In this document: positions 4,974 through 34,468 of the stretch, in pieces
How the letters are laid out: the number at the start of each line of letters is the position of its first letter
How positions within the stretch are numbered: position 1 is the stretch's first letter
Notes under the pieces: generated by a model
Database searches by the model: none
Told to the model about the DNA's origin: nothing
The model's input: the letters and a program-made list of their open reading frames with translations, nothing else
Position numbers and translations under genes: made by a program
NCBI GenBank assembly: GCA_945860285.1
Contig: CAMAQB010000030.1
Location: 1-37,754, forward strand
Length of the DNA: 37,754 bases
Source of the DNA: Akkermansia muciniphila
GTDB lineage: Bacteria; Verrucomicrobiota; Verrucomicrobiia; Verrucomicrobiales; Akkermansiaceae
Reading direction: 5' to 3'

Positions 4974-5042
4974 TCTCTGGGGTCAGTCCTCGCATGGTAA
5001 CATTTTAATTGACGAAGTGCGGTGTGCGGGTAGGGTTTGCGC
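4974..5042 (+). promoter_or_regulatory. Divergent intergenic region, likely RAYT 5' flank
   Basis: The gap between the cassette start and the transposase start carries GGGGTCAGTCCTCGC followed by an AT-rich block (GTAACATTTTAATTGACG). In my memory this GGGGTCAG...-type sequence often precedes REP-associated tyrosine transposase genes, so it may be part of the transposase element rather than host promoter. That statement is recollection and was not checked. TTGACG at 5010-5015 could serve as a -35 box for the transposase, but the -10 at the correct spacing is poor. Confidence 0.35.
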
Positions 5043-5606
5043 ATGGCTCGACCACTTCGATTTGTTTATCCGGGCGCGGTGTATCATGTGATGGCGTGGG
5101 GAGATGGCGGAAAAAAGCTGTTCCTCACCGACTCCGATCATCTGTTGTTTCTCGATTGGCTGGATGGTGCTTGCAAGAGACATGGCTGGCGCATTCATGC
5201 ATGGGTGTTGATGGGCAACCATTTTCATCTGTTGTTGGAAACTCCCGAACCCAATCTGGTGAGTGGGATGAAATGGTTGCTCGGGGGATTTAGCCAAGCA
5301 TGGAATCGTCGCTACAAGCGCACGGGCCATGTATTTCAGGGTCGCTACAAATCGATTCCCGTATCCGGCGAACGCGCTTCAGATCCTTATCATTTCGGCA
5401 TCGTGGCGGATTACATTCATCTTGTGAGATGGGGACAGACAAATAATCATGAAGGTGCGGGCGGCAATCTTCGCGGAGGCCGCGTGCTCGATTACCTCGA
5501 CAAACCCAAGCGGAGCATGTGCAGCCTCTTCCTCAACCTCATGGAATGGGGCGGCCTGAAACTCGACCGCTTCAACGATTCGACCGAACGACTTCCGGGT
5601 GTCTGA
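5043..5606 (+). CDS. REP-associated tyrosine transposase (IS200-like, Y1_Tnp)
   Basis: A 187-residue HUH-type single-strand transposase. It begins MARPLRFVYPGAVYHVM, the classic RAYT opening, and has the metal-binding HUH motif in MGNHFHLLLETP (His60, His62). The nucleophilic tyrosine is probably Tyr124 in DYIHLVR. The usual RYIHLNPVRA segment is altered after YIHL, and the protein is a little shorter than many RAYTs, so activity is uncertain. RAYTs act on dispersed palindromic REP sequences and do not behave like ordinary IS elements (family knowledge). Candidate palindromic partners lie at 33891-34468. The ATG at 5043 is preferred over an in-frame TTG at 5037. It is transcribed away from the ParB/AAA+ cassette. 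Confidence 0.88.
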   Translation: MARPLRFVYPGAVYHVMAWGDGGKKLFLTDSDHLLFLDWLDGACKRHGWRIHAWVLMGNHFHLLLETPEPNLVSGMKWLLGGFSQAWNRRYKRTGHVFQGRYKSIPVSGERASDPYHFGIVADYIHLVRWGQTNNHEGAGGNLRGGRVLDYLDKPKRSMCSLFLNLMEWGGLKLDRFNDSTERLPGV

Positions 5607-15128: not shown

Positions 15129-15482
15129 GGGTTGACGCTCCGCGATACTCGGCGCAATGTCAATTTTCTTAGCAAACGTAAAGCACGTGCAACCCTACCA
15201 GCAATGATCATTTGTCTGGAAAGTTGTCATGAAATAGGCCGATCTCCCGAGAAAAATAAGCCGATCTCCCGAGAAAAGAACAGCACCAGCCGAGAATTTT
15301 TCTCCGCTGGTGCTGTAGAGAGGCTCAAGAATTGATCCGGTGGCTTATGGCGTCCCGGCATCCTTGTCATCTATTCAGCGGCCTGCAAGTGCCCCGGACT
15401 GGCAGCCCGAGTTTGCCGCCATTCAGGAAAACCAACGCGAATTGGCATCGACAAACCGCCCCATAAGGCCTATTGGACGCGT
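15129..15482. other. Non-coding gap upstream of the heme lipoproteins
   Basis: 354 bases with no convincing gene on either strand. It holds the shared upstream region of the second antitoxin (minus) and the first heme lipoprotein (plus), an 18-base direct repeat and a strong hairpin (separate entries). No sigma70 promoter with two good boxes was found. Confidence 0.5.
15238..15315. repeat. 18-bp direct repeat followed by a strong hairpin
   Basis: GCCGATCTCCCGAGAAAA occurs at 15238-15255 and again at 15260-15277. Directly after it, CAGCACCAGC (15281-15290) and GCTGGTGCTG (15306-15315) form a perfect 10-bp stem. Its loop contains a further GAGAA/TTCTC 5-bp stem with a three-base loop. No T-run follows, so this is not a standard intrinsic terminator. 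It may be a small repeat-element end, or an RNA structure in the leader of the lipoprotein genes. Confidence 0.5.
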
Positions 15483-33465: not shown

Positions 33466-33855
33466 ATGTCCGACGAACAATCCGTGATCGAAGCGATCGG
33501 CAAAGAAGGCATCAACCGCATGGTGGAGGGCTTTTATCGACGTGTGAAAACCGACGACCTGCTCGCGCCGATGTATCCGCACGACGACTGGGAGGGCTCC
33601 GAATCGCGACTGCGCGATTTTCTCCTGTTCCGCATCGCCGGGGATCCCAAATACATCCTGGAACGTGGCCACCCGCGCCTGCGGATGAGGCACATGCCCT
33701 TTCGCATCGGCATGGCCGAGCGCGACCGCTGGCTGGCCTTGATGGGTGCGGCCATGGACGAAGCAGAGGTCGAAGGAGCCGCGCGGGCATTTCTGGATGC
33801 CTTGTTCCTGCAAATCGCCGATTTCATGAGGAACCAGCCCGAAGCGATGCCCTAG
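33466..33855 (+). CDS. Truncated hemoglobin, group II-like
   Basis: A 129-residue globin with the 2-on-2 fold. FYRRVKTDDLLAPMYP near the start carries the B10 Tyr, and GHPRLRMRHMPFRIG holds the proximal His of helix F. The downstream ERDRWLALMGAAMD has the Trp (G8) typical of group II (trHbO). Such proteins bind O2 or NO and are tied to oxygen handling or peroxide and NO defence (family knowledge). It starts 5 bases after the second PilT-like gene, so it is probably in the same transcript; a functional link between pilus ATPases and a globin is not obvious. Confidence 0.9.
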   Translation: MSDEQSVIEAIGKEGINRMVEGFYRRVKTDDLLAPMYPHDDWEGSESRLRDFLLFRIAGDPKYILERGHPRLRMRHMPFRIGMAERDRWLALMGAAMDEAEVEGAARAFLDALFLQIADFMRNQPEAMP

Positions 33856-33890
33856 CATCATCTGCAAAGCATCAGTCTTCTTGCCTCTGT

Positions 33891-34247
33891 CCATGGGCCA
33901 ACGGCCCTAGAAAGGCCAGTCCGAAGCATCGCCCTGGTTTCGCCGACAAAGTGCCCGTGATCAGGCTCCGATCCATGGGCCAACGGCCCTAGAAAGGCCA
34001 GTCCGAAGCGTCGCCCTGGTTTCGCGGACAAAGTGCCCGTGATCAGGCTCCGATCCATGGGCCAACGGCCCTAGAAAGGCCAGCCCGAAGCGTCGCCCTG
34101 GTTTCGCGGACAAAGTGCCCGTGATCAGGCTCCGATCCATGGGCCAACGGCCCTAGAAAGGCCAGCCCGAAGCGTCGCCCTGCTTTCGCGGACAAAGTGC
34201 CCGTGATCAGGCTCCGATCCATGGGCCAAAGGCCCTAGACATGCCAG
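33891..34247. repeat. 82-bp tandem repeat, about 4.4 copies
   Basis: The unit begins CCATGGGCCAACGGCCCTAG at 33891, 33973, 34055 and 34137, with a fifth, partial and diverged copy at 34219. The period is exactly 82. The interior copies are almost identical (one T/C difference after CCAG); the first and last complete copies carry private changes. Each unit contains GGGCC-AAC-GGCCC and a diverged form of the GCCC...GCCCTGG palindrome found intact at 34247-34266. 82 is not a multiple of 3, so it is not a coding repeat. Confidence 0.9.
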
Positions 34248-34401
34248 CCCAGGGCATCGCCCTGGGTATGCAGTCGCACATCATCACAAGCCCTGAAAGG
34301 GCGGCACAAAAACGTTGTCGCGCCCCTTCAGGGCTGAATCATCTCAAAACTCCACTCCCAGGGCGATGCCCTGGGCTGGTTTGTTTGCGGGCCTTTGGCC
34401 C
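34223..34401. repeat. Nested inverted repeat of REP-like units
   Basis: Left arm 34223-34266 (GGGCCAAAGGCCC, spacer, CCCAGGGCATCGCCCTGGG) is matched in inverted order by the right arm 34357-34401 (CCCAGGGCGATGCCCTGGG, spacer, GGGCCTTTGGCCC). Between them a second pair, AGCCCTGAAAGGGCGGCAC (34289-34307) and GTCGCGCCCCTTCAGGGCT (34317-34335), is also inverted. Every unit is itself palindromic. The whole block can fold as one long structure, like the paired REP units (BIMEs) of enterobacteria. Confidence 0.8.
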
Positions 34402-34421
34402 TGAAATCCTTGACCCGCGAC

Positions 34422-34468
34422 ACTGAGATGCAACTGATTTTTGGACCAAAAATCAGTTGCATCTCAGT
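34422..34468. repeat. 47-bp perfect palindrome
   Basis: Two 23-base arms (34422-34444 and 34446-34468) are perfect reverse complements around a single central A. The left arm reads ACTGAGATGCAACTGATTTT plus TGG. It is AT-rich at the centre and not related by eye to the GC-rich REP-like units beside it. There is no trailing T-run. Its length and perfection suggest recent origin or selection; a cruciform, regulator site or transposon end are possible. Confidence 0.85.

Follow-up and report, generated by a model that had tools for sequence, protein, structure and literature searches.

Introduction

In the IS200/IS605 transposons, subterminal hairpins at both ends of the element are recognised on the same strand and are not inverted with respect to one another. 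Inverted ends are a feature of TIRtrons or TIRYTs, which are Y1 transposase genes with inverted, sometimes double-palindromic ends (Di Nocera 2013, PMC3733652). In the classification of Quentin 2018 (PMC6006769), all 26 TIRYT examples belong to transposase subclasses 2.1, 2.2 and 2.5. The same source defines TnpA subclass 1.2 by the motifs DH[IV]H, WQ and Y---Q--HH and a length of about 148 aa, assigns it mainly to Cyanobacteria and Bacteroidetes, and enters 'REP: no' for it. Cleavage by an enzyme that uses a GTAG tetranucleotide was abolished by mutating positions 3 and 4 of that tetranucleotide, according to the text of PMC8266576.

A further family of relevance is Acido-Lenti-1 (Rfam RF01687), which Table 1 of Weinberg 2010 (PMC2864571) lists as probably RNA without giving a function. 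In the text of a 2026 study of Tannerella proteases (PMC13298647), an 'sRNA' of the RF01687 type is read as a possible regulator.

Here we analyse a composite palindromic block at positions 34223-34401 of a 37,754-nt stretch of Akkermansia muciniphila DNA (the window), which comprises contig C30 in full, one of 162 contigs in a 3.70 Mb genome. The block lies between a bacterial-globin gene (end 33855) and a GDSL-lipase gene (start 34629), both on the plus strand.

Results

Architecture and predicted folding of the block

The block consists of six palindromes in the order A-B-C then C'-B'-A', making up two inverted arms (Table 1). The first-pass annotation of this DNA had described outer and inner arms that are inverted and made of palindromic units, with the unit types in the same order in both arms. 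All six palindromes were confirmed, and the order from the outside inwards is A, B, C in each arm; the third palindrome type, C, was absent from that description. The outer arms (GGGCCAAAGGCCC at 34223-34235 and its reverse complement at 34389-34401) are 100% complementary, the whole arms (34220-34274 and 34349-34403, 55 nt) are 76% complementary, and in the inner arms B pairs with B' and C with C'. In the two arms A and B are spaced by 25 and 26 nt, and B and C by 42 and 41 nt. The conserved unit, as delimited by covariance-model matches (below), extends slightly beyond A and A'. The core between C and C' showed no coding remnant on inspection.

As a single strand, the block is predicted to form one long hairpin. 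The computed folding energy is -70.3 kcal/mol as DNA (z -11.6) and -131.5 kcal/mol as RNA (z -14.5), and 0 of 200 shuffled sequences equalled either value. The expectation of the first-pass annotation that the block can fold into a large structure is thus borne out by folds far beyond those of the shuffles.

Table 1. Features of the block and the adjoining array (window coordinates)
Feature	Position	Strand	Remarks
Tandem array of degenerate 82-bp A-B units	33890..34265	+	4.6 copies; model matches 33891-33992 and 34055-34156, 24-27 bits
Left unit A-B-C	34219..34305	+	matched by R1 over its full length (1-87 of 87) at 78.6 bits
Palindrome A, GGGCC aaa GGCCC	34223..34235	+	
CCAG, guide-like tetranucleotide at the foot of B	34244..34247	+	A and G do not vary among the 48 flank units of the alignment
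Palindrome B, CCCAGGGC atc GCCCTGGG	34248..34266	+	
Palindrome C, GCCCT gaa AGGGC	34290..34302	+	
Core between C and C'	34303..34321	.	position of the transposase gene in related elements
Right unit C'-B'-A' (A-B-C on the minus strand)	34319..34405	-	matched by R1 over its full length (1-87 of 87) at 67.8 bits
Palindrome C'	34322..34334	-	
Palindrome B'	34357..34375	-	followed by CTGG (34376-34379), the mirrored guide
Palindrome A'	34389..34401	-	
B'-A' stretch, match to RF01687 (Acido-Lenti-1)	34357..34402	+	all 46 positions; 28.4 bits against a gathering score of 37

The left arm of the block is the final unit of the 82-bp tandem array. A similar array of nine head-to-tail units with 101-bp spacing was found in another genome (G022:C47:192381-193275, locus L182). 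The 3' end of the globin gene aligns in register with the window array (33834-33915), yet the NQPE codons of this gene are shared by several homologues that lack an array; this register may reflect chance or gene conversion. Two other repeats were observed in the window. Immediately to the right of the block, at 34422-34468, two perfectly inverted 23-bp arms are separated by a single nucleotide. Five exact copies of a 20-nt segment of the arm lie elsewhere in the genome (control 0), two of these at contig position 129. By eye, no transposase was recognised at the two copies inspected, and the repeat probably represents the ends of another multi-copy element. A short tandem repeat (22-bp, 2.1 copies) lies at 15232-15277.

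Three-hairpin units bracket IS200-like transposase genes

Partial relatives of the block were found on host contigs C14, C28, C138 and C16. On C16 the repeats adjoin a Y1 transposase gene (PF01797; ORF L020:1486-1938), with A-B-C ahead of the start codon and C'-B'-A' after the stop; a further A-B-C and the beginning of another transposase come next. The encoded protein (P0001) contains the motifs DHVH, WQ and YIDDQEKHH and scores 66.7 bits against the NCBIfam IS200/IS605 model NF033573 (cut-off 55), with no match to the RAYT model. Its relatives by sequence in the PDB are transposases, e.g. 2xm3. C16 carries the nearest host transposase, and the C stem of its units (GGGCTgaaAGCCC) differs from that of the window.

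A single contig scan for relatives of the C16 transposase yielded 78 loci from Verrucomicrobia, Acidobacteria, Planctomycetes, Lentisphaerae, Kiritimatiellota, Armatimonadetes, Hydrogenedentota and others, an assignment in which MAG binning errors are possible. Setting aside 13 broken or short loci left 65 unbroken transposases with a median length of 150 aa, in which Y---Q--HH is present in 63, DHVH in 62 and WQ in 64. According to a DNA profile built from the units of these loci themselves, the 100 nt upstream of the transposase contain a forward unit at 45 of the 78 loci and a reversed unit at 12, and the 100 nt downstream contain a reversed unit at 53 and a forward unit at 4. Both A-B-C before and C'-B'-A' after the gene were present at 39 of 78 loci; another 13 are exceptions to this flank rule, being unit-free within 100 nt on both sides. 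A strict rule of perfect hairpins with an AG foot to B, applied to the 76 loci with enough sequence, found B upstream at 42, downstream at 52 and on both sides at 32. In a 20-locus flank test, which is partly model-dependent because at least three of its contigs appear to coincide with L058, L061 and L062, a plus-strand unit lay upstream at 15 loci and a minus-strand unit downstream at 13 (both at 11), with the wrong orientation at 2 and 1, respectively.

The geometry of these flanking units matches that of the window: A and B are 25 or 26 nt apart in 68 of 75 cases, and B and C 41-43 nt apart in 45 of 67. The foot of the hairpin, which the search rule required to end in AG, is CCAG in 70 of 94 cases and GTAG in 4; TTAG, CTAG, ATAG and GTAG account for 17 of the 24 feet that are not CCAG. 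Hairpin subtype follows transposase lineage, with 3 changes for the 'other|other' group against a shuffled mean of 10.3 (0/500), on a transposase tree that is weakly supported (48 of 69 inner branches open). The sole cyanobacterial locus (L112) has a partial transposase match and no unit. In a subtype found at L223, L233, L234 and L275, hairpin B is far longer than usual. A further motif, which we take to resemble a type I restriction specificity subunit (HsdS), lies within approximately 1.2 kb of 13 of the 78 transposase loci (L035-L065 and L093, also host C16) and near 0 of 19 controls; HsdS-like genes are a possible preferred target.

A covariance model of the unit recovers both arms of the block

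The flanks of the transposase loci provided 58 units with all three hairpins. After removal of 10 near-duplicate or doubtful sequences, the remaining 48, all from genomes other than the host, were aligned and used to train a covariance model, R1. All three stems vary on both sides (16 of 18 pairs), with a covariation score of 0.463 as compared with 0.135 for shuffled alignments. The percentage of paired positions in this alignment is circular because the units were picked for having hairpins, a concern that applies less to the range of pair types. The A and G of the foot, invariant in all 48 units, agree with the essential positions 3 and 4 of the tetranucleotide as reported in the text of PMC8266576.

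R1 matched each arm of the window block over all of its 87 positions, in opposite orientations (78.6 bits forward, 67.8 bits reverse). Among 38 genomes (the host and members of the same genus, family and order), 33 contained matches at E <= 1e-4. There were at least 110 such matches in G022 and at least 106 in G036, per-genome numbers being lower bounds since at most 117 candidates were scored in each. The 3.70 Mb host genome contains 8 units above 60 bits, 17 at E <= 2.6e-4 and 23 at E <= 0.1. Nine host units score 35-44 bits in addition to the 8 above 60 bits, and 7 of these 9 flank three further transposase relatives on C39, C112 and C107 (L021, L022 and L024), which are bracketed by TTAG-footed triple units. 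The Y---Q--HH motif is present in the C112 protein; it is unseen in those of C39 and C107, since one stop interrupts the C39 frame and C107 yields a partial match.

Units occur in convergent pairs of two size classes

The first-pass annotation had called for a count of the units and their orientations across the genome. The units recur, and they pair convergently, which runs counter to both outcomes that it had named as refuting (units occurring only once, or lacking a tendency to pair). Among the best 150 units listed from 38 genomes, neighbours at gaps of up to 120 nt comprised 23 convergent, 8 tandem (all from one G022 array) and 6 divergent pairs. The 23 convergent gaps all fall between 13 and 46 nt, the window pair, with a gap of 13 nt, being one of them. 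Just 4 further convergent pairs lie within 700 nt in this same set of 150, and their gaps of 467-474 nt all contain a transposase match. The fetched loci, a sample biased towards transposase loci, gave a similar picture: 66 convergent pairs without a transposase at gaps of up to 250 nt (the window's included), 0 at 251-430 nt and 48 at 431-900 nt, all with a transposase. Ten transposase-spanning pairs had non-convergent orientations. As is typical of a MITE, the block shares its termini with transposase-bearing elements.

The window's own C subtype could be followed by means of palindrome C and its inner bases (CCCTGAAAGGGCGRCACAA, one mismatch), a pattern with 95 occurrences in 38 of the 288 genomes of the order (reversed control, 3). 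Of 30 pattern loci, 24 contain units, including the window itself; at L205-L208, L210 and L222 the pattern is present and the unit absent. Around transposases, this C subtype (one mismatch allowed) was found at L227, L232 and L234, all from the same order and all with IS200-like, Y---Q--HH enzymes. At L227 four gene-less pairs lie just downstream of the transposase element. At L234 an intact element has one gene-less pair alongside, in which the first seven transposase codons are identical to those of the neighbour and are followed by a stop and the right end; from its sequence, this pair reads clearly as an internal-deletion derivative. A screen of the 66 gene-less pairs, the window's included, found none that keeps 14 nt or more of the transposase ORF. 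Control stretches gave 39 matches in 1320, perhaps from unlisted transposase fragments. The L234 pair escaped the screen because its two right-hand units score below the threshold applied. Since only L234 keeps a remnant, it is by inference that an internal-deletion origin is assigned to the window block.

Evidence of movement came from contig C28, where a unit forms an 81-nt in-frame insert in a long ORF that is helicase- or restriction-like by eye. The insert is absent from 5 of 5 homologues found among 276 genomes of the order (four of the five were included in the DNA alignment), and in one of them the two halves are exactly contiguous. These empty sites imply either at least one movement of a lone A-B-C unit or a unit left behind by a pair. 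As for the window copy, nine congeners that have the globin gene were compared, and none shows a unit in the 1.5 kb read from each. The next genes downstream of globin differ in these congeners, and the window copy is therefore without a clean empty site. No units were found in the GDSL loci L246-L254, and gene order around the globin and GDSL genes is not conserved in the relatives examined. In this genome the window copy may be an old one that has lost its activity.

The lone C28 unit raises the question of whether the single A-B-C unit, and not the pair, is the mobile quantum, in which case the block would be two independent units that landed head to head. The tandem arrays of single units, both in the window (33890-34265) and in G022:C47 (9 units), are compatible with such an origin, as is the fact that 65 of the best 150 units listed have no listed neighbour within 700 nt. 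Independent landings do not account readily for the 23 of 37 close pairs that are convergent with a narrow gap, particularly as 8 of the 14 others belong to one array, nor for repeated pairs with near-identical cores (L184, three copies). We regard this origin as unlikely.

The outer half of the unit corresponds to Acido-Lenti-1

At the gathering threshold, a search of the whole window against Rfam gave no matches. A relaxed search of a short stretch returned RF01687 at full length on the right arm only (Table 1), together with rows for micro-RNAs and frameshift elements that were dismissed as chance matches to long palindromes. The 46 positions of RF01687 coincide with hairpins B' and A' of the unit. 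Its model does not extend to palindrome C, to the inverted partner or to the transposase, and the family is filed as a probable non-coding RNA (Table 1 of Weinberg 2010, PMC2864571).

From the 78 transposase loci, 20 were chosen for variety; 6 of these contain RF01687 matches that exceed the gathering score, 17 in all. All 17 matches lie inside units and 10 of them are within 120 nt of the transposase gene (compared by hand). The lack of a match at the other 14 loci is consistent with a family model whose training set covered just part of the variety. Genome-wide, RF01687 was detected in 26 of 38 genomes at E <= 0.001 and above the cut-off in 19 of 38, compared with 0 of 14 control genomes. 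In 10 genomes, including the host, the best match per genome was inside a unit in every case; a perfect third stem accompanied 6 of these 10 (against 6.7% of shuffles), and 2 of the 10 are within 1.5 kb of a Y---Q--HH-type transposase. The best 8 of 9 matches in the host genome are all in R1 units, and 7 are beside transposase relatives. The outer half of the unit thus seems to explain this supposed 'sRNA' family.

This correspondence bears on a further alternative, that the block is a transcribed RNA element (a small RNA, 3'-UTR stabiliser or terminator) kept for regulation in the globin-GDSL gap. Its fold as RNA is very stable, Rfam files its outer half (the match at 34357-34402) as an sRNA, and the neighbouring genes are both on the plus strand. 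A terminator-like site at 34357-34375 could be added to this list, but such sites are at chance level (1 found, 0.8 expected). A regulatory element of this gap would also not be expected to be missing from all 9 globin-bearing congeners, or to recur on both strands, within an ORF and around transposase genes. We consider a regulatory RNA to be an improbable explanation of the block; a DNA reading of RF01687 fits better than an RNA reading, and a transcript is possible.

The unit differs from REPINs, TIRYTs and IS200/IS605 ends

The first-pass annotation had compared the block to the paired REP layout associated with RAYT transposases and had pointed to a RAYT gene in the window as its partner. 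The window does contain a Y1-like ORF (5037-5606, P0003), located 29 kb from the block. P0003 has an NHFH motif and a degenerate tyrosine motif, YIHLVR, in place of either Y---NP or Y---Q--HH, and it scores 40.9 bits against the RAYT model, for which the cut-off is 80. R1 found no unit matches near it. P0003 was rejected as the cognate transposase on the grounds of its YIHLVR motif, its sub-cut-off score and the lack of adjacent units. A BIME-like paired layout tied to a Y1 transposase was therefore upheld and its tie to the window's own Y1 gene was not; the earlier interpretation is right in kind and names the wrong partner gene.

In common with REPINs and BIMEs (Bertels and Rainey 2011, text of PMC3116915), the block is an inverted palindromic pair with a short spacer that forms one long hairpin, has a Y1 link and belongs to a type that occurs in clusters. 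It differs in having three palindromes per unit in place of one (PMC3116915), a CCAG foot in place of GTAG (or GT[AG]G), a low copy number in the host genome, and an associated transposase of the Y---Q--HH type (63 of 65) and not a class 2 RAYT with Y---NP. Inverted pairs, copies in tandem, a guide-like foot on the hairpins and a Y1 gene within the window might suggest a classical REP/BIME sequence mobilised by a class 2 RAYT. This reading is largely refuted and highly improbable given the Y---Q--HH motif of 63 of 65 associated transposases, the fit of P0001 to the IS200 and not the RAYT model, the 70 of 94 CCAG feet and the unit-free surroundings of the window's Y1 gene.

The members of the present family resemble TIRYTs in having Y1 genes between inverted terminal repeats and in occurring also as dimers and clusters (PMC3733652). 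The transposases differ from those of TIRYTs in bearing the subclass 1.2 signature, and triple-palindrome ends are not described in the text parts of PMC3733652. The family of the transposase is that of IS200/IS605 elements such as IS608 and ISDra2, from which the ends differ in being inverted copies of a three-hairpin unit. With TnpA subclass 1.2 (text of PMC6006769) the associated transposases share the motifs DHVH, WQ and Y---Q--HH and a length near 150 aa. The difference lies in the composite palindromes that flank the genes here and in the host range of Verrucomicrobia, Acidobacteria, Planctomycetes and others. A survey of the main articles of the open-access literature, by title and the start of the abstract, identified no work linking such ends to subclass 1.2.

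Discussion

Across many species, a unit of constant spacing brackets Y---Q--HH transposase genes, and the same unit recurs in convergent pairs that lack a gene. We assign a probability of roughly 0.8 to the block being a non-autonomous mobile element, that is, two inverted IS200-like transposon ends from which the transposase gene is absent, an assignment that rests on sequence comparison. The match to a model trained on the flanks of transposase genes, the bracketed genes themselves and the two gap classes together make it most likely that the block is a REPIN/MITE-like non-autonomous element of the triple-hairpin, subclass 1.2 TnpA family.

A mechanism can be proposed for such an element. 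TnpA made elsewhere would bind hairpin B of single-stranded DNA, for example on the lagging strand, with the CCAG foot acting as the guide for cleavage. Both inverted units would be excised together as one folded strand and rejoined elsewhere. Palindrome A may mark the outer edge, and C the inner edge, of the element end. Tandem arrays such as that at 33890-34265 could be by-products of repeated joining or recombination.

More broadly, there is probably an unnamed family of single-strand mobile DNA, with a subclass 1.2 TnpA and inverted three-hairpin ends, in Verrucomicrobia, Acidobacteria, Planctomycetes and neighbouring groups. Its gene-less derivatives and solitary units would be what is classified as Acido-Lenti-1, a transposon DNA end and not a small RNA. 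A warning follows for annotation, in that an Rfam 'sRNA' invoked as a possible regulator may be transposon DNA. A transposase subclass described without a REP substrate gains a candidate one, and the prediction is that a TnpA of the subclass 1.2 type cuts A-B-C ends and not GTAG REPs. Finally, the presence of transposase-bearing and gene-less forms on one contig (L234 and L227) displays the step from a transposon to a REPIN-like element.
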